Position numbers and translations under genes: made by a program. Under the pieces are notes generated by a model that was not told the DNA's origin, searched no databases, and was given only the letters and a program-made list of their open reading frames with translations. From Pseudomonadota bacterium (GTDB lineage Bacteria; Pseudomonadota; Gammaproteobacteria; Burkholderiales; Ferrovaceae), in contig JAJZFH010000027.1 of NCBI GenBank assembly GCA_021805445.1, positions 1-55,417 on the forward strand: a stretch of 55,417 bases of DNA, given 5' to 3'. This document shows, one piece after another, positions 34,187 to 43,426 of this stretch (its first letter is position 1; each line of letters begins with the position of its first letter).

Positions 34187-34333
34187 CATGGAAGTGTTGT
34201 AGCCACGGGGTGTGGGCGGTAACGGGCCGGGCGAAGGCCGGGTTCTTTGCGATGGCTTGAAGATCGGAGTGTTTTCCGGTCGTGTGATATTCCTGCCCAC
34301 TCCCTGACTGTCTTGATCATAAAGGGAGCCGTC

Positions 34334-34972
34334 ATGCATATCGAACCAGGTTATATTTCTTCTGCCAAAATCGCTGCGGCGAATGTGACTGCGCTTGGAA
34401 TCTTGGGAAGCCAGAGTCTGGCTCTGCTACGCCAGCCTTCGCTGGTGATTCGTACCGCCATCGCTGCGGTTTTTTTCACCCTGTTCATGCAGATGTATCA
34501 CCTTCCGGTCGGACCGTCGGAACTACATTTCGTTGGGGCCATGCCCATCTACCTCATTTTCGGCTTCGTGCCGACTTTGTTGGGCTTCGGTCTGGGTCTA
34601 CTGCTGCAGGGGCTTCTGTTCGTTCCCACGGATCTCGTGCATTTGGGGGTGAATACCCTGTCGCTGGCCATCCCCCTGGTGCTGTTGCATGGGACGGTGG
34701 GACACCGTTTGAAAACGGTCGACATCAAAACCCTCCTCAAACTCGATGCATTTTATTACAGTGGTGTGACCTTGATGGTCGGGTTCTGGCTGTCGCTCAG
34801 CGAGATTCCTACGCCACTTTCGGCCTGGGCTGCCTTTGCGGCTTCGTACCTGGTGTTGGTCATGATCGAACCGGTGTTTACCTGGACTCTGTTGGTCGCT
34901 TTCAAAGGTCGTCGGAATTCTCCCATTGCCCGCCACTGTCTCGAGTACCGTGTTGAAGCCCTCGTGCGCTGA
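34334..34972 (+). CDS. Stand-alone CbiM-like cobalt transporter
   Basis: A 212-residue membrane protein of the CbiM/NikM substrate-binding family of ECF transporters. The N-terminus MHIEPG corresponds to the MHIxEG of CbiM, in which Met1 and His2 bind the metal, and His65 in GPSELHFVGA matches the third ligand region (GTSGHLLGA in typical family members). Later helices include GLLLQGLLFVPTDLVHLGVNTLS. No CbiN, CbiQ or CbiO is present here, so it may act alone or with a module encoded elsewhere. First gene after the riboswitch; AGGGAG lies 5-6 nt before ATG 34334. Confidence 0.85.
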   Translation: MHIEPGYISSAKIAAANVTALGILGSQSLALLRQPSLVIRTAIAAVFFTLFMQMYHLPVGPSELHFVGAMPIYLIFGFVPTLLGFGLGLLLQGLLFVPTDLVHLGVNTLSLAIPLVLLHGTVGHRLKTVDIKTLLKLDAFYYSGVTLMVGFWLSLSEIPTPLSAWAAFAASYLVLVMIEPVFTWTLLVAFKGRRNSPIARHCLEYRVEALVR

Positions 34973-35028: not shown

Positions 35029-35823
35029 GTGGGTAAGGTATGGTTCGTTGGTGCGGGCCCCGGGGATCCGGAACTTCTGACCGTCAAGGGGGTGAAGTTG
35101 CTACAGCAGGCAGGCGCCATCCTGTATGCAGGATCTTTGGTGGATAGAGCTGCTACCTGTCATGCGCCCAGCCACTGTGAAGTCCTGGACTCCAAGGACA
35201 TGACCCTGGAGGAGATCACGGTCTGGTTGATCGAACAGGCAGCGCGCCATGCCACCGTGGTTCGCCTTCAGACGGGAGATCCCGGACTCTACGGTGCCTT
35301 GGTGGAAATGGTGCGGGCGTTGGACCAAGCCCAGGTCGAGTGGTCGGTGGTGCCCGGTGTTTCTTCCGCATTGGCCGCTGCCGCTGCGGCAGGAGAGACC
35401 TTGACCCTGCCGGAGGTTACCCAGACCGTGATTTTGACCCGGGTGGCGGGACGCACACCGATGCCTCCCGGAGAAGATCTGGAATCCCTGGCCGCGCATC
35501 ATTGTACCTTGTGCCTCTTTCTTTCCATCACGCTCTTCCCGGAGATCCAGCGTGCCTTGCGCAAGGCGGGATGGGCGGAAGACAGTCCGGTGCTGGTGGT
35601 ACAAAAAGCCAGTTGGCCGGGTGAAGAAAAGATCGTGCGGGGGACACTGGCCGATATTCGTGAGCGGTGTCGACGGGAGAAAATCGGTAGTCAGGCCATG
35701 ATCATCGCCAGTCCCGCCTTGGGTGCCCGGGGGTGGGCCGAGATCAAACGTTCGAAACTGTACGACGGTACGTTTTCCCATCGTTATCGCAAGGCAAACA
35801 AGGAACCCGGAGACCTCTCATGA
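35029..35823 (+). CDS. cobM: (Cobalt-)precorrin-4 C11-methyltransferase CobM/CbiF
   Basis: Adds the C11 methyl group with S-adenosylmethionine. The product is 264 residues of the tetrapyrrole methylase fold: VWFVGAGPGDPELLTVKG at the start, LDSKDMTLEEI, VVRLQTGDPGLYGALVEM and VVPGVSSALAAAAA. The start is GTG at 35029, as no ATG lies before the conserved strand. The stop overlaps the cbiX start (ATGA). Part of the riboswitch-controlled operon. Confidence 0.93.
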   Translation: MGKVWFVGAGPGDPELLTVKGVKLLQQAGAILYAGSLVDRAATCHAPSHCEVLDSKDMTLEEITVWLIEQAARHATVVRLQTGDPGLYGALVEMVRALDQAQVEWSVVPGVSSALAAAAAAGETLTLPEVTQTVILTRVAGRTPMPPGEDLESLAAHHCTLCLFLSITLFPEIQRALRKAGWAEDSPVLVVQKASWPGEEKIVRGTLADIRERCRREKIGSQAMIIASPALGARGWAEIKRSKLYDGTFSHRYRKANKEPGDLS

Positions 35824-36686
35824 AGAATGAAACTATTTTACTGGTGGGACATGGTTCCCGGGAACAAAGCGGCAATCAGGAAATTGAATTCTTTGCGGAA
35901 CAATGGCGCAGCCGTCAACCCCAATTGAACATCGAGGTCTGTTTCATTGAATTTGCGGCGGTCCTGGTCGAGGAGGGGTTGAGCAAAGCGGCCCGGCGCG
36001 GTGGGCGGGTCGTGGTCGTTCCCCTCATTCTGAATGCGGCCGGTCATGTCAAAATGGAGATTCCGGAGCACCTCGAGCAGGCGCGCCTGCGTTATCCGGC
36101 GGTGGAGTTTGTCTACTGCCCGCATCTGGGGGCCAATACCCAAATTCTGGCGATTCTCAAACGCAATCTGGCGCATGCCCTGGCCCAATTGGATATGCCG
36201 GATCCCCGAAATACGGGGATCGTTCTCCTGGGACGGGGTTCTTCGGATCGTGTGGCCAATGGCGAGGTGGCAAAAATGGCACGCTGGCTCTATGAAGAGG
36301 GAGAGCATCCCTGGGTGGACATCGCTTTTACGGGGATTACCCATCCACGCCTGGAATCGGTGATCCAACGGCAGGTCAAACTGGAGGTCCGGCAAATCAT
36401 CGTGTTGCCTTTCTACCTGTTCACCGGTACCCTGATCGAGCGCATCCGTCGTCAGGTCCAGGCGCTTGAAATACAATATCCACAGGTGCGTTTTGCCCTG
36501 TCCGGTTATTTTGGGTTCGAGGAAGAGATCTATGCCCTGCTGGAGCAACGAATCCGGGAGGCGACGGATCCGACCGCCCATCGCATGATGGAATGCGATG
36601 GCTGCAAGTACCGTGAATTTTCCGCTGATCATGGACAGGGAGGGCATGCGCATGATCATCCTCCTGTCGTTGCTTCCGTACAGTAG
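35820..36686 (+). CDS. cbiX: Sirohydrochlorin cobaltochelatase CbiX (long form, Fe-S/His tail)
   Basis: CbiX inserts cobalt into sirohydrochlorin, the entry step of the early-cobalt route. The product is 288 residues with two CbiX repeats: ILLVGHGSREQSGNQE (His11) with LNAAGHVKMEIPEH (His76) in the first, and IVLLGRGSSDRVANGE in the second, where Arg replaces the His. The C-terminus has a MxCxxC motif (Met257, Cys259, Cys262) then a His-rich stretch (HGQGGHAHDH), the arrangement reported for Bacillus megaterium CbiX with a [4Fe-4S] cluster. Start at the ATGA overlap with cobM. Confidence 0.93.
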   Translation: MKNETILLVGHGSREQSGNQEIEFFAEQWRSRQPQLNIEVCFIEFAAVLVEEGLSKAARRGGRVVVVPLILNAAGHVKMEIPEHLEQARLRYPAVEFVYCPHLGANTQILAILKRNLAHALAQLDMPDPRNTGIVLLGRGSSDRVANGEVAKMARWLYEEGEHPWVDIAFTGITHPRLESVIQRQVKLEVRQIIVLPFYLFTGTLIERIRRQVQALEIQYPQVRFALSGYFGFEEEIYALLEQRIREATDPTAHRMMECDGCKYREFSADHGQGGHAHDHPPVVASVQ

Positions 36687-36695
36687 ATCCGGCCC

Positions 36696-37364
36696 ATGAA
36701 AACTCCGATCATCACCGAACAACTCACGGATGCAGGACGACGCATCGAACACGACTCCTTTGCCATCGTGGATCGTGAGGCAGGCCCCCATGCATACTCT
36801 GACGCCCAGTGGCAGGTGGTACGTCGCATGATTCATGCATCGGCGGATTTTGACTTCAATGGGTTGACCCGTTTCCATCCCCAGGCCATCGAGGCGGGGC
36901 TGCAAGCCATCCAAAGCGGGGCCCCCATCGTTGCCGACGTGGAAATGATCTGTGTGGGATTGTCCAAACCCCGTCTGGAACACTATGGCATGCACCCCCA
37001 TCAGTTCATTTCTGATGAGGATGTGATCGCCCAAGCCCAAATCCGGCATACGACGCGCGCGGTCCAAGCCATGCGCAAAGCTCAGGCACAACAGTTGCTG
37101 GAGGGAAGTATCGTGGCCATTGGAAATGCGCCCACCGCGTTGCTCGAGATTTTGCGGATGGTGCGGGAAGACCGGGTTCGGCCAGCTCTGATCATCGGGA
37201 TGCCCGTAGGTTTCGTCTCTGCGGCCGAATCAAAAAACTTGTTGAGCCAGTGCACGGAGTGCCCCTGGATGCTCATCGATGGTCGAAAAGGAGGATCCAC
37301 TCTGGTGGTGGCCGCCCTCCACGCCTTGTTGGCTCTGGCTGAAGTTCACGCCGATCCTCTTTGA
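36696..37364 (+). CDS. cobH: (Cobalt-)precorrin-8X methylmutase CobH/CbiC
   Basis: Moves the methyl group from C11 to C12 to form (cobalt-)hydrogenobyrinate. The product is 222 residues with VVRRMIHASADFDFNGLTRF (catalytic His47), GAPIVADVEMICVGL, ALLEILRM and IIGMPVGFVSAAESK. The gene is 9 nt after cbiX and 9 nt before cbiD, within the same operon. Confidence 0.93.
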   Translation: MKTPIITEQLTDAGRRIEHDSFAIVDREAGPHAYSDAQWQVVRRMIHASADFDFNGLTRFHPQAIEAGLQAIQSGAPIVADVEMICVGLSKPRLEHYGMHPHQFISDEDVIAQAQIRHTTRAVQAMRKAQAQQLLEGSIVAIGNAPTALLEILRMVREDRVRPALIIGMPVGFVSAAESKNLLSQCTECPWMLIDGRKGGSTLVVAALHALLALAEVHADPL

Positions 37365-37373
37365 ACTGCGTCC

Positions 37374-38483
37374 ATGGAAAAAAAGCCAAAGGGCACGCGC
37401 AAGGGGTTCACCACCGGCGCTTGTTCCGCTGCAGCCGCCCGGGCCGCAGTACTCGGGTTGATCCAGGGTTCGGTTCCGGAAGTGGTGGAATGTGATTTGC
37501 CCAACGGGGAACGAGTCAGGTTTTCCGTATCTGAAGGACAGTCGGATGGTGCTTTGGCCCATGCGGTCGTGATCAAGGATGCAGGAGATGATCCGGACGT
37601 GACGGATAAGGCTGCGTTGACCGCAGACGTCCGGTGGTTGCCGGATGCTCCCGGTGCCGTACACCTGAAAGGGGGGGCAGGGGTGGGTACGGTGACCATG
37701 CCCGGTCTTGGACTGGAAGTGGGAGGGCCAGCCATCAATCCAGTGCCGCGCCGCAATATCGAGGCCAATGTGCGTCAGGTGGCGCAGGAGGCTCTGGAGC
37801 GGCAGGGGTTGGAGGTCTGCATCTCGGTGCCGGGCGGCGAGATCCTGGCCAAGCGGACATTGAATTCCCGTCTGGGCATCGTGGGGGGGATTTCCATTCT
37901 GGGGACGACGGGCATCGTGCATCCTTACTCGACAGCGGCATTTCGTGCCAGCGTCATCCAGGGCATCGAGGTGGCTGCCAACCAGGGACAGGACACCGTG
38001 GTGCTGACCACCGGGGGAAGAACCGAGAAATTTGTCATGGGCGCCTTGCCTCACCTGGCTCAATCCTGTTTCGTGCAGATGGGGGATTTTTTGAAATATG
38101 CGCTCGATACCGTCGTGAAGTGCGGTATTGCACGGGTCATCATTGGCGGGATGGTGGGCAAATTGACCAAGATCGCCCAGGGAGAAACCATCACCCATGC
38201 GCATCGCAACCCGGTGGATACGGATCTGCTGGCAGAGATTGCGGCCTCTGTAGGGGCTCCTGCAGACGTATGCGGCGCCATTCGGCAATCAGAGATGGCG
38301 CGCTATGCCAGTGAACGAATGGAGGCGTTGGGGTTGATCACGGAATTTTATGAGGCCTTGGGTCAGCGGGTGATACAGACCTTGTACGGTCGTTATCCGG
38401 GGAAATTTGCCCTGCAGGTGATGATGTGCGATTTTGACGGCCAACCGTTGGCACAGGTATCTGGAGAGAACTGGTATGGTTGA
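37374..38483 (+). CDS. cbiD: Cobalt-precorrin-5B C1-methyltransferase CbiD
   Basis: Methylates C1 in the early-cobalt pathway, a step with no counterpart protein in the CobF-based aerobic route. The product is 369 residues: GFTTGACSAAAARAAVLGL near the start, GGAGVGTVTMPGLGLEVGGPAINPVPR (part shown: GVGTVTMPGLGLEVGGPAIN), LGIVGGISILGTTGIVHPYS and VIIGGMVGKLTKIAQGE. Its presence, with CbiX and CbiG, argues for the oxygen-independent pathway. It overlaps the next gene by 8 nt. Confidence 0.94.
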   Translation: MEKKPKGTRKGFTTGACSAAAARAAVLGLIQGSVPEVVECDLPNGERVRFSVSEGQSDGALAHAVVIKDAGDDPDVTDKAALTADVRWLPDAPGAVHLKGGAGVGTVTMPGLGLEVGGPAINPVPRRNIEANVRQVAQEALERQGLEVCISVPGGEILAKRTLNSRLGIVGGISILGTTGIVHPYSTAAFRASVIQGIEVAANQGQDTVVLTTGGRTEKFVMGALPHLAQSCFVQMGDFLKYALDTVVKCGIARVIIGGMVGKLTKIAQGETITHAHRNPVDTDLLAEIAASVGAPADVCGAIRQSEMARYASERMEALGLITEFYEALGQRVIQTLYGRYPGKFALQVMMCDFDGQPLAQVSGENWYG

Positions 38484-39771
38484 ACCTTGTCTGGTCGTCG
38501 GGGTATTGGACAACGGGGTGGAGAGTTTGGCACCCGAGGCTCTTGACGGCGTGCAGGCGGCGGATCTGATCATTGGGGGGCGACGGACCCTGGAATTATT
38601 CCATGCGGTGATTCGGGCCGATGCCGAGTGCAAGGATTTGACGGGGTGTTTGTCCCAGGTCCCCCAGTGGGTCGTCGAGGCCCAACAGGGACATCGGCGG
38701 GTGGTCATTCTGGCCAGCGGAGACCCCCTTTGCCATGGGATCGGGGGCTATCTGGTCGAGAAATTGGGCCGCCCGGCTGTCCGTCTTCTGCCCAATCTTT
38801 CGTTGATCCAGGTGGCTTGTGCCCGTTTGAAGCAACCTTGGCAGGCGTTACGGATTGCTTCCGTGCATAGCCGTGATGTGGGCGAATGGCATGTGGGGGC
38901 AGGCCCTGAGCATGGGCTTCATGGGTTGTTGCAAGTGCTCGTCCGGGAAAAATTGGTGGGGATTTTCACCAGTCCGGAGAATACGCCTGGGCGGATTGCA
39001 CGGATGTTATTGACGGAAGAGTTGGCGGGAGACTGTGAGATGGCGGTGGCGGAATGTCTTTTGCAGGATGGGGAATGCATTCATGACTGGATGGACGTTG
39101 CGGCGGTATCCCAACGCGTCTTTGCTGAGCCGAATGTGGTACTGGTGCGGCGTTGCGCCGTTCCGAAGGATGCCTTGTTTGGTTTGGAGGATGCGCGCTT
39201 CGACCAACGCAAACCCGACAAGGGGTTGATCACCAAGCGCGAAGTGCGTGCGGTTTCCCTGGCCAGAATGGCTTTGCAGCGGGACAGTGTGGTCTGGGAC
39301 ATCGGGGCGGGTTCAGGGGCGGTGGGGCTGGAAGCGGCTCGGCTGTGTACTCGGGGGCATGTTTACGCCATCGAGAAGAACGCTGAAGATGGCGCCATCA
39401 TCCTCAGAAACCGGGCCAGTTTGCAGGTGACCAATTACACCCTGGTGCAAGGGAAAGCCCCGGCGGGCCTGACAGAATGGCCTGATCCCGATGCCATTTT
39501 CATCGGCGGTTCGGGGGGGGAATTGCGCGAATTGATCCAGATCTGTCTGGCAAGACTTCGTCCGGGCGGACACTTGGTCATGAACTTTGCCACCCTGGAA
39601 AATCTGGGCACGGCCCTGGCCTGTCTTGCCGCTTCGGCCACCGTGTGGGACGTCACTCAATTACAGGCGGCGCGGAGTCGTCCCATTCTGGAGATGCACC
39701 GCTTGCAAGCAGAGAATCCGGTCTGGATTCTCTGTGCCGAAAAGTCGGTATCTGCGGCAGGTGGCGCATGA
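38476..39771 (+). CDS. cobL: (Cobalt-)precorrin C5,C15-methyltransferase CbiE-CbiT fusion (CobL type)
   Basis: A 431-residue fusion. The N-terminal CbiE part (1 to about 225) has VVILASGDPLCHGIGGYL and LPNLSLIQVACARL; the C-terminal CbiT part (about 235-431) is a Rossmann methyltransferase with VVWDIGAGSGAVGLEAARL near 272-290 and AIFIGGSGGELREL. It methylates C5 and C15 and decarboxylates the C12 acetate. ATG 38476 overlaps cbiD by 8 nt. The stop overlaps cobI (ATGA). Confidence 0.93.
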   Translation: MVEPCLVVGVLDNGVESLAPEALDGVQAADLIIGGRRTLELFHAVIRADAECKDLTGCLSQVPQWVVEAQQGHRRVVILASGDPLCHGIGGYLVEKLGRPAVRLLPNLSLIQVACARLKQPWQALRIASVHSRDVGEWHVGAGPEHGLHGLLQVLVREKLVGIFTSPENTPGRIARMLLTEELAGDCEMAVAECLLQDGECIHDWMDVAAVSQRVFAEPNVVLVRRCAVPKDALFGLEDARFDQRKPDKGLITKREVRAVSLARMALQRDSVVWDIGAGSGAVGLEAARLCTRGHVYAIEKNAEDGAIILRNRASLQVTNYTLVQGKAPAGLTEWPDPDAIFIGGSGGELRELIQICLARLRPGGHLVMNFATLENLGTALACLAASATVWDVTQLQAARSRPILEMHRLQAENPVWILCAEKSVSAAGGA

Positions 39772-40559
39772 GCGCGCGCACTTGCGGTCGGCTGTATGGG
39801 GCTTCCCTGGGGCCGGGGGATCCGGGTTTGATCACCCGGCAGGTTTGGGCATTGCTGCAACGGGAGGACCTCTACTGGACCTATCCTGTGCGTCGCAAGG
39901 GCGCAGACAGTCATGCACTCGGCATCGTCCAGCGTGCCGGACGGGAACTGCCCGGCATGAGTTGTCCGCTGATTTTTCCCATGACCCACGATCCGGAAAT
40001 TCTGGCCGGTTATTGGTTGCGGGCGGCTGAAGTGGTGCTCGAGCAGTTACGGACGGGACAGGATGTCATATTTTTGGTCGAGGGAGATGCCTCGACCTAC
40101 TCCACCTTCGGACACTTGTCCCGGACCGTGCGGGCGTTGGCGGCGGAAGTGCGCATCGAAACTCTGCCCGGAGTTTCCTCCTACCATGCTGCTGCAGCCA
40201 CCGTGGGCATGCCGCTGGCCGAGACGGATGAAACCGTTGCCATCATTCCGGCCAGTTATGGGATCGAGATGATCGAGCGCCTGTTGCCGGATTTCGATAC
40301 GCTGGTTTTGCTCAAGGTCAAGCCCTTGCTGGACGATATTCTGGATCTTCTCGAACGGCGTGACTTGTTGGTCCATGCGGCGTTCATCGAAAAAGCCGGC
40401 ACCCCGCTGGAACGGGTGGAACGTGCACTCACCCGTTTGCGTGGGCATAAGGTCAACTATCTGTCCTTGATGCTGGTGCGTAACCCGGCGCGGGTGCGCG
40501 GGACGATCCTGCGCGGCTGCCGAAAAAAATCTTCCCCAATGGATACGACTTACCCATGA
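39768..40559 (+). CDS. cobI: (Cobalt-)precorrin-2 C20-methyltransferase CobI/CbiL
   Basis: Adds the C20 methyl group. The product is 263 residues of the tetrapyrrole methylase fold: GRLYGASLGPGDPGLITRQ at the start, CPLIFPMTHDPEILAGYW, VIFLVEGDASTYSTFGHL and TLPGVSSYHAAAATVGMPLA. The start is ATG 39768 in the ATGA overlap; the frame is open upstream, but that part lies inside cobL. Confidence 0.92.
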   Translation: MSARTCGRLYGASLGPGDPGLITRQVWALLQREDLYWTYPVRRKGADSHALGIVQRAGRELPGMSCPLIFPMTHDPEILAGYWLRAAEVVLEQLRTGQDVIFLVEGDASTYSTFGHLSRTVRALAAEVRIETLPGVSSYHAAAATVGMPLAETDETVAIIPASYGIEMIERLLPDFDTLVLLKVKPLLDDILDLLERRDLLVHAAFIEKAGTPLERVERALTRLRGHKVNYLSLMLVRNPARVRGTILRGCRKKSSPMDTTYP

Positions 40560-41299
40560 ATCCCATGACTGCTCCCCAGGTCGCTCTCGTTGCGATTACC
40601 AAACATGGTCTGGCCCACGCCCTTGCCCTGCTTCCCCTATTGCCCGAAGCCCATCTGGTCGTCACGGAGAAATTTGCTCCAGTTGTTCCGCCTGCGTTGC
40701 CCAATACGGTCAAGATCCTGTCCGGGGCATTGAGTGGTCATATGGCAGACCTGTTTTCTTGCTACGATCAACTGGTCCTGTTCATTTCCCTGGGTGCCGT
40801 GGTGCGTTTGATGGCTCCCCATCTCAAGTCCAAGGATGAAGATCCAGGGGTGGTGGTGATCGACGATGCGGCCCGCTACGTGATTCCTGTTCTGTCCGGC
40901 CATGTGGGAGGAGCCAATGCCTTTGCCTTGTACCTGGCTGAACTGCTGGGCGCCGAAGCCGTCCTGACGACGGCCTCCGATGTGGGGAAAACCCTCCCCG
41001 TGGATATTCTGGGGCGCGAATTGGGCTGGCGGGTGGAGGCCCCCAAGATCAACATTACCCGGGTTTCGGCCCATGTGGTCAATGGAGAACCCATCGCTTT
41101 CGTGCAGGAAGCCGGGAGTCGGCAATGGTGGACGCGTCCCACACCCCTCCCTTCCAATATCCACCTGTTCGATGAATTTGAGCAGGTGGATCTGAACGCG
41201 TTCAAAGCCGTACTTTGGGTGACGCGGCGTGAAATTTCGGCACCGGTATGGGAACGGTTGAAAGAGCGGCTGGTCGTGTATCGTCCCCCTCTGGAGTAG
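40556..41299 (+). CDS. cbiG: CbiG N-terminal and central domains (split gene)
   Basis: A 247-residue protein covering the CbiG N-terminal and middle domains. CbiG opens the delta-lactone of cobalt-factor IV and releases acetaldehyde after ring contraction in the anaerobic route. Features: LFISLGAVVRLMAPHLKSKDEDPGVVVID (part: ISLGAVVRLMAPHLKSKD), VIPVLSGHVGGANAFALYLA and AVLTTASDVGKTLPVDILG, the signature of the family. The C-terminal CobE-like domain is a separate gene starting 4 nt after the stop. Confidence 0.92.
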   Translation: MNPMTAPQVALVAITKHGLAHALALLPLLPEAHLVVTEKFAPVVPPALPNTVKILSGALSGHMADLFSCYDQLVLFISLGAVVRLMAPHLKSKDEDPGVVVIDDAARYVIPVLSGHVGGANAFALYLAELLGAEAVLTTASDVGKTLPVDILGRELGWRVEAPKINITRVSAHVVNGEPIAFVQEAGSRQWWTRPTPLPSNIHLFDEFEQVDLNAFKAVLWVTRREISAPVWERLKERLVVYRPPLE

Positions 41300-41303
41300 C
41301 AGG

Positions 41304-41702
41304 ATGAAAGTCATGGTGGGCGTGGGATGCGATCGGGATGTTGCCTTCGCTACCCTGAACGAAAGCGTGCGGTTGGGCCTCCGGCGGGTGGGGCTGACGG
41401 AAGGTGCCGTTGCTGGCTTGGCGACCATCGACAAAAAGAATGATGAGGTGGCCGTGCTGGAACTGGCCGAGGTGAAAGGCTGGCCGCTATTTTTTTTCAA
41501 TGCGGCGCAACTGTCTCAAGTCCCGGTTCCCAATCCTTCGGAGACGGTGCGCCGGTATATGGGGACTCCGGCGGTGTCTGAAGCCGCTGCATTATTGGCA
41601 GCGGGCGTCGGGTCGGAAGGTCTGATACTGGAAAAATTCAAATACCGTGGCGCAGACCGGAAACATGCCACGGTGTCCATTGCACTCATGAAAGAGAATT
41701 GA
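41304..41702 (+). CDS. cbiG: CbiG C-terminal / CobE-like domain as a separate protein
   Basis: A 132-residue protein matching the CbiG C-terminal/CobE family: MVGVGCDRDVAFATLNESV, LATIDKKNDEVAVLELAE, LFFFNAAQLSQVPVPNPSE, the GTPAVSEAAALLAAG motif and LILEKFKYRGADRKHATVSIA. AGG lies 1-3 nt before ATG. Together with the preceding gene it reconstitutes full-length CbiG; the break falls between domains and each part has intact start and stop, so this is a natural split and not a frameshift (inference). Confidence 0.9.
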   Translation: MKVMVGVGCDRDVAFATLNESVRLGLRRVGLTEGAVAGLATIDKKNDEVAVLELAEVKGWPLFFFNAAQLSQVPVPNPSETVRRYMGTPAVSEAAALLAAGVGSEGLILEKFKYRGADRKHATVSIALMKEN

Positions 41703-43076
41703 ATGAAAACAGGAAAAATTTTGATGGTGGGTTTTGGCCCAGGAGCCACGGAACATATGACCTACCGCGCGCGCGCGGCCATTGCCGAGGCGGATGTGGT
41801 CATCGGATATTCCACTTATATCAAGTTGGTGCAGGATCTCCTGGTCGGCAAGGAAATCATTCGCAAGGGAATGACGGAAGAGATCGATCGTTGCGTCGAA
41901 GCCTATGAACAGGCATGTCAAGGCAAAACGGTCGCCCTGATCTCTTCGGGAGATATTGGTATTTACGGGATGGCGGGTCCCACCTATGAGGTGCTGCTTC
42001 AGGCCGGCTGGACGCCGGAAAGCGAGATCAGGGTGGAGGTCATCCCCGGTGCCAGCGCCTTGAATGCCTGTGCGTCCCTGGTGGGAGCTCCTTTGACCCA
42101 CGATTTTTGTTCCATCTCCCTGTCTGATCTCTTGACGCCCTGGCCGGTGATCGCCCAACGTTTGAGGGCGGCTGCACGCGGAGATTTTGTCATCGCCCTC
42201 TATAATCCAAAAAGTGGGCGGCGCACCCAGCAGATCGTGGAAGCCCAGCGTCTGCTGCTGGAATACCGGTCACCCCGGACGCCTGTGGCCGTGGTCAAAT
42301 CCGCCTATCGCCGCCGCCAGAATATTCAACTCGTCACTCTGGAAACCATGGCAGACCAGGACATCGGCATGCTGACCACGGTATTGATCGGGAATAGCAG
42401 CACCTTCGTGCGCGCCGGATTGATGGTGACCCCCCGGGGGTATACCAATAAATACGAAGGATTGACAGGGGAGACCAAGCCCGGAGAGCAGGCCGGGCGT
42501 TCTCTGACCCTGGGGTTGGAAGGGTGGCATGAATTCGTTCGAGTTCACCTGCAAACCCACCCCGACCACTCCTTGCGGCAGGTGGCGGACCATTTCGATA
42601 CGCCGCTCGCACAGATTATGGAGGCTTTGGCGGGCCCCTTGGGAGACGCCACCCTCGACGGCATTGTGATTCGTCACTTTGCTCCGGAGGAACTGGAGTG
42701 TCTCCTGCAGGAAATGCGCCAATGGGGGAAGTTGCGCGCAGTGGTACGCCATGGCGGGGCCGTTGCGGAACTCTTGTTTCATGCCCGGGATTTGACCCTG
42801 AAGTCAGGTCGACTGAATCTGATTCATGAGCATTTCCATTTACACGTGGATGTGTCCTCCCTGGCCCATGGCTGGTTTGTCTGCCAGAAGGCACGTCAGG
42901 CTGGAGTCTATTTTACGGATTCGCACGGAGAGTTTGTGGCGTCCTTTCTTTTGACCAAGAATGGAGAAGGACAGTGGTCGGCGGAAGCCTGGAAAAGTTT
43001 TTACGGTTCGTTGACGACGGTGGGGACGGGGAACGAAGACGTTCAGATAAATGGAAACAGAGGGGAAGAAGCATGA
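41703..43076 (+). CDS. cobJ: (Cobalt-)precorrin-3 C17-methyltransferase CobJ/CbiH fused to a ChuX/HutX-like domain
   Basis: A 457-residue two-domain protein. Residues 1 to about 258 are CobJ/CbiH, which methylates C17 and contracts the ring: LMVGFGPGATEHMTYRARAA, SSGDIGIYGMAG, VIPGASALNACASLVGAPLTHDFCSISLSD (part: IPGASALNACASLVGAPLTH) and DFVIALYNPKSGRR. Residues about 273-437 resemble the ChuX/HutX heme-carrier fold: FVRVHLQTHPDHSLRQVADHF, then QWGKLRAVVRHGGAVAELLF and a His-rich strand IHEHFHLHVDVSS (His375, 377, 379, 381), then a strand pair with VYFTDSHGEFVASFLL. There is no Cys cluster motif in this half, unlike CbiH60 of B. megaterium. Starts 1 nt after cbiG-C; overlaps the ferredoxin gene (ATGA). 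Confidence 0.85.
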   Translation: MKTGKILMVGFGPGATEHMTYRARAAIAEADVVIGYSTYIKLVQDLLVGKEIIRKGMTEEIDRCVEAYEQACQGKTVALISSGDIGIYGMAGPTYEVLLQAGWTPESEIRVEVIPGASALNACASLVGAPLTHDFCSISLSDLLTPWPVIAQRLRAAARGDFVIALYNPKSGRRTQQIVEAQRLLLEYRSPRTPVAVVKSAYRRRQNIQLVTLETMADQDIGMLTTVLIGNSSTFVRAGLMVTPRGYTNKYEGLTGETKPGEQAGRSLTLGLEGWHEFVRVHLQTHPDHSLRQVADHFDTPLAQIMEALAGPLGDATLDGIVIRHFAPEELECLLQEMRQWGKLRAVVRHGGAVAELLFHARDLTLKSGRLNLIHEHFHLHVDVSSLAHGWFVCQKARQAGVYFTDSHGEFVASFLLTKNGEGQWSAEAWKSFYGSLTTVGTGNEDVQINGNRGEEA

Positions 43077-43426
43077 GTGAGGGCGCGGATCATTTTCCGA
43101 TCAAACCCACCATCGGGAACTATAAACGTCACGTCCTGGTGTGCACAGGCCCGCGGTGTACCTTGCAGGGGGAGTCACAAACCCTCTTCGACAGCCTGGG
43201 AGAAAAATTCAAGGCGGCGGGGCTCGACAAGGGAGCTCTGCGTGTCAAGCGTACCCGGGTGGCATGTTTTGCAGCCTGTAAAGGCGGGCCCATTCTCTGT
43301 GTGCAACCGGATGGGGTGTGGTATTACAACGTCACTTCAGAGAACCTCGAGCGGATCGTTCAGCAACATCTGGTGGAGGGGATGCCCGTGGAGGATCTGG
43401 TTTTTCATCAGCAGATGAAGGAGTGA
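43073..43426 (+). CDS. Thioredoxin-like [2Fe-2S] ferredoxin of the cobalamin operon
   Basis: A 117-residue protein with the pattern of thioredoxin-like [2Fe-2S] ferredoxins: HVLVCTGPRCTLQGE (Cys24, Cys29), then VACFAACKGGPILCVQPDG (Cys65, Cys69, with an extra Cys76) and VWYYNVTSENLERIV. A small ferredoxin accompanies CbiH in some anaerobic B12 operons (CbiW of B. megaterium). It may supply electrons for a step of ring contraction or for corrin reduction; this is inference. ATG 43073 overlaps the cobJ stop. Last gene of the operon. Confidence 0.85.
   Translation: MSEGADHFPIKPTIGNYKRHVLVCTGPRCTLQGESQTLFDSLGEKFKAAGLDKGALRVKRTRVACFAACKGGPILCVQPDGVWYYNVTSENLERIVQQHLVEGMPVEDLVFHQQMKE

Follow-up and report, generated by a model that had tools for sequence, protein, structure and literature searches.

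The window analysed here is a stretch of 55,417 nucleotides (positions 1 to 55,417 of contig JAJZFH010000027.1, assembly GCA_021805445.1) from a bacterium of the family Ferrovaceae. It contains a vitamin B12 operon in which the gene for CobJ/CbiH runs on, in one open reading frame (ORF), into a domain of the HutX/ChuX heme-carrier type. The ORF (41703-43076, + strand) has 457 codons from ATG to TGA with no internal stops, and the features of the fusion are as follows.

41703..43076, + strand: CobJ/CbiH-HutX-type fusion, 457 amino acids (ORF and family profile matches)
41718..42446, + strand: CobJ/CbiH methyltransferase domain, residues 6-248 (TIGR01466)
42462..42515, + strand: linker with the tail motif GExxGRSL, residues ~254-271 (alignment and predicted model)
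42516..43028, + strand: complete HutX-type domain, residues 272-442 (AF2 model, VIA-align match to 5exv and 2ovi; Pfam 327-431)
42735..42749, + strand: R345 to R349 of the putative ligand site, in the strand of residues 343-350 (alignment and model)
42768..42770, + strand: E356 of the putative ligand site (alignment)
42837..42845, + strand: H379-L380-H381 of the putative ligand site, in the strand of residues 379-383 (alignment and model)

The N-terminal part matched the cobJ_cbiH profile TIGR01466 with 320.8 bits (cut-off 246.35, E 5.2e-96), profile positions 1-239 being fully covered; by this match it would be a precorrin-3B / cobalt-factor III C17-methyltransferase with ring-contraction activity. 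Residues 327-431 matched PF06228 (ChuX_HutX; E 7.9e-10, 39.2 bits against a gathering cut-off of 25) and residues 329-433 matched PF05171 (HemS; 29.6 bits, cut-off 24). The three matches in one ORF bear out the first-pass annotation of the window, which had CobJ/CbiH running on into a ChuX/HutX-like domain, and the protein database already has the combination of PF00590 with PF05171/PF06228 among its precomputed domain assignments. The NCBIfam HutX equivalog, TIGR04108, has a cut-off of 110, which was reached neither by the full protein (23.7 bits) nor by the domain alone (26.8 bits), and a Pfam scan of the fusion protein gave no match to PF02571 (CbiJ/CobK).

In the AF2 model the C-terminal domain consists of helices at residues 275-309, a beta sheet at 321-417 and a last helix at 427-439; the prediction thus shows the HutX/ChuX heme-carrier fold in full. 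The ChuX-like fold had been put forward beforehand as open to refutation by a structure prediction; the model matched HutX and ChuX (5exv and 2ovi, VIA-align) along the entire domain, at 16-19% identity. The linker has low model confidence (pLDDT <50 at 248-258 and 262-268). When a six-member family profile was compared with solved structures, the best match was HemS (E 5.6e-08), followed by ChuS (1u9t, E 3.7e-05), an Agrobacterium relative (E 0.0017) and ChuX (E 0.013); the single domain sequence gave a best E of 1.5 against the PDB. The domain thus has sequence-profile relatives among HemS, PhuS and ChuS (PF05171), but these match the profile with two repeats and the fusion's domain has a single one. 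It differs from the HutX/ChuX heme carriers (PF06228) in being attached to CobJ and in having R345 and R349, which are new.

Shorter relatives were sought among 5.8 billion proteins with a profile search (7,993 candidates scored). Seventeen were found, of which 11 still had the CobJ tail and six were pieces beginning at or inside the domain; no free-standing sister of the domain was among them; a domain-only protein search returned one fragment. Some relatives, P0005, P0006 and P0008 among them, also match PF22684 (LFE_1968-like), a family that overlaps the HutX-type domain.

The fusion is widespread. A scan of genome contigs gave 149 stretches with 88 relatives, of which 80 were kept, making 81 loci with the window; in all 81 CobJ and the domain share an ORF, in some cases as contig-end pieces. 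At one locus, from a methane-oxidising endosymbiont of Gigantopelta (L080:8246-9555), cobJ is split into two ORFs and the second piece alone has CobJ and the domain. The carriers include Ferrovum, Methylomonas, Methylobacter, metagenome-assembled genomes of Sideroxydans and Gallionella, Zetaproteobacteria, Chromatiales, Spongiibacter and others. Within the window's genus the fusion is present in seven of eight genomes, and the eighth (G007, 73% complete) has no matches to the fusion protein; P0003, named Ferrovum sp., is 88% identical to the fusion along its length. An assembly artefact is an unlikely origin of the fusion, because six other genomes of the genus and named isolates such as Methylomonas and Methylobacter have the same one.

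Two samples drawn without reference to the scan pattern were also surveyed: a class sample of 369 genomes, which we take to be Gammaproteobacteria as GTDB draws it, and an order sample of 250 genomes, presumably Burkholderiales. CobJ was found over the cut-off in 40 genomes of the class sample (21 fusions and 19 non-fusions) and in 18 of the order sample, 57 distinct genomes between them. The 18 comprised four fusions, six linker-only forms (the same CobJ type with a short tail, without the HutX beta domain), six CobJ::CbiJ fusions and two other CobJ. The survey of CobJ proteins that had been proposed finds the domain in many relatives whose B12 operon resembles this one. In literature searches combining CobJ, CbiH, precorrin or cobalamin biosynthesis with HutX, ChuX or HemS, none of the papers listed hinted at a CobJ-HutX fusion in its title, opening of the abstract or term counts, subscription papers being mostly outside their scope.

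Conservation within the domain points to a candidate ligand site. An alignment was made of 77 rows from the 81 loci (L064, L078, L080 and L082 were left out for length), and with 24 rows from the class and order samples this gave a site alignment of 101 rows, in which L100 and L154 are one gene and the window is entered twice. R345, R349, E356, H379 and H381 are jointly kept in 93 of the 101 rows, and each of the other eight loses two to five of them: H379 and R349 are gone in all eight, E356 and H381 in seven, R345 in five. These eroded rows come from four lineages (L092/L095/L096/L098, one clade; L100 = L154, genome G004; L102, G162; L116, G291), the last of which loses only R349 and H379. 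The five residues are seen directly to erode together, and this is not general decay, because other conserved columns of the domain mostly stay: there are no losses at G271, W275 and A308, one at F298, two at G342 and three each at W341 and L371. V347 and F378, on the same strands as site residues, also go (in eight and seven of the eight rows).

The first-pass annotation had drawn attention to four histidines. All are present, at 375, 377, 379 and 381, but over the 77 rows only H379 and H381 are conserved (72 each), H377 being found in 37 and H375 in five. Because the HLH motif was part of the scan pattern, the 77 rows favour the His pair; in the sample drawn without that pattern, both histidines were found in 21 of 24 genomes. 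When eight segments of free HutX/HemS proteins were compared, H381 was shared by six, E356 by two, H379 by one, and R345 and R349 by none. We infer that the five residues would form one ligand pocket, in which an old family histidine is combined with new arginines fitting a tetrapyrrole with many carboxylates. It is plausible that the domain binds or hands on a corrinoid, as had been suggested, and there is now a concrete candidate site for it.

Taken together, the data speak for a HutX-type domain that takes part in making the corrin ring. The reading that we favour, with a probability of roughly 0.45, is that the HutX-type domain is a built-in holding or hand-over site for the enzyme's own cobalt-tetrapyrrole and not a part of heme uptake. 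The HutX-type pocket would take up cobalt-factor III, its ring-contracted product cobalt-precorrin-4, or both; H381 and H379 would lie close to the metal, and R345 and R349 would pair with the many carboxylates. Thanks to the linker, for which flexibility is predicted, the domain would be able to move up to the methyltransferase site and over to CobM/CbiF, the next enzyme, and the oxygen-sensitive intermediate would thereby not be released. The ligand, its contacts with these residues and the hand-over are what we infer from the conserved set and the predicted fold. In the oxygen-independent B12 pathway the difficult step is ring contraction, whose intermediates are sensitive to air; the carriers Methylomonas, Methylobacter, Ferrovum, Gallionella and Sideroxydans are aerobes or microaerophiles. 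As a holding site, the fusion would provide many relatives with a built-in handling step for a fragile B12 precursor.

Several observations weigh against this reading. The putative site was picked out post hoc from the alignment, the meeting of its residues in space is drawn from sequence, and it is wholly or partly lost in eight of 101 rows. The beta domain is dispensable, since six of the 18 same-order CobJ genomes have the same CobJ type without it, and in G004, of the same genus, the family profile still detects the domain (L154, 148 bits) but Pfam does not (L008). Moreover, the HutX-type domain changes about ten times faster than the CobJ core: in 10 pairwise comparisons among five closely related genes from the genus, the ratio of non-synonymous to synonymous substitution rates (dN/dS) was 0.010-0.033 for the core and 0.15-0.38 for residues 320-442. 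This faster evolution implies a role weaker than the enzyme's. By the same ratios, well under 1, the domain is maintained by selection, far more loosely than the core.

These data also bear on the possibility that the domain has no ligand and is a leftover, or an assembly or stability part such as a dimer contact, that is slowly being lost. Its absence from linker-only CobJ, the loss of the site in four lineages and the relaxed selection relative to the core would all fit, but the explanation is unlikely: the charged and His set is whole in 93 of 101 rows, unlike a pure scaffold, and the domain's dN/dS is well below that of a sequence drifting freely. In a quick tree eight of nine linker-only rows were nested among fusions, and seven of the nine retain a segment that matches the HutX-domain profile at its beginning, with just 12-18 bits. 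That the linker-only forms lost the domain is therefore favoured; that they certainly did so was rejected, as an approximately unbiased (AU) test did not reject the HutX rows as one clade (p 0.376).

The fusion lies in a B12 operon and not in a heme-utilisation neighbourhood such as surrounds a HutX carrier. The genes upstream of it, in the order CbiM-like, CobM, CbiX-like, CbiC, CbiD, CbiET, CobI, CbiG-N and CbiG-C, and the one directly downstream are listed below.

34247..34972, + strand: CbiM-like cobalt transporter permease, ORF as listed (matches an ORF of L146 annotated as energy-coupling factor permease; no NCBIfam matches)
35029..35823, + strand: CobM/CbiF (TIGR01465, 313.6 bits over 259.65)
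35733..36686, + strand: CbiX-like sirohydrochlorin chelatase, extent of the listed ORF, the gene itself probably starting later (named after its annotated counterpart in L146 and L152; related NCBIfam chelatases stay below cut-off, 87 vs 120)
36696..37364, + strand: CbiC precorrin-8X methylmutase (PF02570, 240.1 bits)
37374..38483, + strand: CbiD (TIGR00312, 392.3 bits over 200)
38434..39771, + strand: CbiE-CbiT fusion, extent of the listed ORF, the gene itself perhaps starting later (TIGR02467, 179.6/92.9; TIGR02469, 125.3/78.3)
39645..40559, + strand: CobI/CbiL, ORF as listed, true start later (TIGR01467, 202.6 bits over 163.25)
40556..41299, + strand: CbiG N-terminal and middle part, a separate gene (PF11760, 110.4 bits; PF11761, 58.6 bits)
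41304..41702, + strand: CbiG C-terminal part, a separate gene (PF01890, 107.9 bits)
43073..43426, + strand: thioredoxin-like [2Fe-2S] ferredoxin (PF01257, 30.0 bits over 24.8)

By its gene content the operon is an oxygen-independent, cobalt-early B12 gene set, the pathway being that laid out in the accessible text of PMC7242693. CobG was found over the cut-off in none of the 40 genomes searched, that of the window included; weaker matches to the CobG model, in 38 of the 40, we take to be related reductases. It had been suggested that the domain might supply heme for an oxidation step. This is not supported, because CbiD and CbiG mark the oxygen-independent route, in which C20 is not hydroxylated, and because CobG did not exceed its cut-off in any of the 40 genomes; the idea was rejected on that count.

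A wider role for heme, in which the domain binds it and CobJ activity responds to it or uses it as a cofactor, must still be weighed. In its favour are the predicted HutX/ChuX fold, the presence of H381 in six of the eight free members and of H379 in one free HutX, and the passing of heme by HutX to other enzymes, as described in the accessible text of PMC12670364. The absence of a C20 oxidation step from this pathway and of CobG over the cut-off from the 40 genomes speaks against it, as does the absence of R345 and R349 from the free members. In addition, the Tyr found shortly before the His strand in the free HutX L190 is Leu in the fusion. A Tyr is a heme ligand of HutX. Heme is therefore a doubtful ligand for this domain. 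In the window genome PF06228 is matched by the CobJ-fused domain and by no other protein. Of the 369 genomes in the class sample, 32 have PF06228 over the cut-off; 17 of the 21 fusion genomes match it through CobJ and four have no match, G289 being the only fusion genome with matches outside CobJ.

The start of the ferredoxin gene overlaps the cobJ stop (ATGA), and its four Cys are kept in 99-100% of 72 rows. Neither this gene nor the lack of CbiJ features in the first-pass annotation. A ferredoxin ORF adjoins the fusion in 67 of the 81 loci (-300 to +1500 bases, same strand), two of the 14 misses having no room for one; in the class sample it is adjacent in 14 of 21 fusion loci vs none of nine non-fusion loci with 1.5-kb flanks. 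Genome-wide, a ferredoxin scoring at least 171 bits is found in 19 of 24 fusion, three of six linker-only and none of 27 CbiJ-bearing genomes. The overlap, the adjacency and this distribution would agree with a two-piece redox module, in which the HutX-type domain holds a cobalt-tetrapyrrole and the ferredoxin reduces it, allowing oxidised cobalt-factor III to be ring-contracted. Such a module would do in trans what the Fe-S domain of CbiH60 from B. megaterium reportedly does in cis. Five of the 24 fusion genomes, however, lack a high-scoring ferredoxin, and five genomes with CobJ::CbiJ have a ferredoxin relative at 92-112 bits, within 13 kb of cobJ in four. Ferredoxins are also fused to BluB (L116) and to CbiX (Leptospira) and may therefore serve other steps. 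The proposal that the His pair and the ferredoxin go together (Fisher p 0.001 in the scan set) was rejected, being driven by one clade and absent from the pattern-free sample (17/4 vs 2/1). Such a module is accordingly rather unlikely, although it ranks next after the favoured reading. A bolder reading would have a heme-chaperone fold captured by the B12 pathway and retuned as a corrinoid chaperone, with two new Arg and the old His holding the cobalt-tetrapyrrole while the ferredoxin reduces it, enabling aerobic bacteria to carry out the oxygen-sensitive ring contraction in air. This is an improbable scenario; if true, corrin-ring assembly would have in the captured chaperone its first built-in domain for carrying an intermediate.

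CbiH60 of Bacillus (Priestia) megaterium is likewise a CbiH with a C-terminal extension, reportedly a Fe-S domain with Cys ligands, in an aerobe using the oxygen-independent pathway. We take UniProt O87689 to be CbiH60. The fusion has only two Cys after residue 248 (333 and 394), which confirms the earlier statement that its C-terminal domain has no Cys motif; here the extension is of HutX type, the Fe-S protein being encoded by a gene of its own. For O87689 a C-terminal extension is noted in the accessible text of PMC8305020. The fusion would represent a second, unrelated type of CbiH C-terminal domain, with a defined five-residue putative site that makes intermediate holding directly testable. 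Thermus CobJ (2zvb, 287 amino acids) has no HutX domain. In the CobJ::CbiJ fusions (L122, L156, L160, L161, L165, L166 and L167) the position after TPRGY that is taken by HutX in the window fusion is occupied by CbiJ (PF02571).

PF02571 is also absent from the window genome. Among the 57 genomes it is present in 0/24 with the fusion, 0/6 linker-only and 27/27 others, whose CobJ lacks both the HutX domain and the tail motif. In a further set of 26 genomes chosen for having the fusion (seven of the Ferrovum genus, three already counted in the samples), 25 have no CbiJ, the exception being G425 (Spongiibacter). This distribution, and the six same-order genomes in which CobJ has CbiJ fused to it at that C-terminal position, might suggest that the domain, alone or with the ferredoxin, stands in for the missing cobalt-precorrin-6A reductase CbiJ. 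That is highly improbable. CbiJ is likewise missing from six genomes that share this CobJ type but have no HutX domain, three of these (G621, G033, G547) lack a high-scoring ferredoxin as well, and the fusion genome G425 has CbiJ. In the tree the CbiJ-less rows fall almost together, with one long-branched CbiJ-bearing row among them, so the match between CbiJ loss and tail reflects one or two events. Replacement of CbiJ by the HutX domain, suggested by the class sample (0/21 vs 19/19), was rejected because the linker-only genomes show that the domain is not a clean substitute; replacement by the ferredoxin was rejected on its missing high-score copies (5/24 fusion, 3/6 linker-only) and its relatives in five CbiJ-bearing genomes.

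The GxxGxSL tail itself was found in 37 of 38 HutX rows (L086 is a near miss), 9/9 linker-only rows and 0/27 CbiJ-bearing CobJ, and in all three rows from other phyla (Thermus, Manganitrophus, Leptospira). It is nearly invariant despite lying in a low-confidence, probably disordered stretch (residues 254-271). In Methylocaldum marinum S8 cbiJ-cobK is the sole gene reported missing in the accessible text of PMC10974252, and the accessible texts of PMC8305020 and PMC6719526 describe a gap at EC 1.3.1.106 in haloarchaea. The survey sharpens this known gap: in the CobJ lineage marked by the GxxGxSL tail, it concerns the enzyme that carries out the CbiJ step.

Further fusions were seen. Leptospira CbiX has a C-terminal [2Fe-2S] ferredoxin domain (L151:4776-5942; PF01257, 33.6 bits over 24.8), and Thermus CbiX (L148:12314-13414) perhaps has the same, at 15.1 bits, below the cut-off. 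Leptospira CobJ (L151:12001-13494, 497 amino acids) has a C-terminal extension with no Pfam match. A BluB ORF is present in 26 of the 81 loci; in one genome BluB is fused onto the CobJ-HutX C-terminus (L078/L119/L143; TIGR02476, 218.2 bits over 150) and in another it is fused to the ferredoxin (L116/L144; 198 bits).
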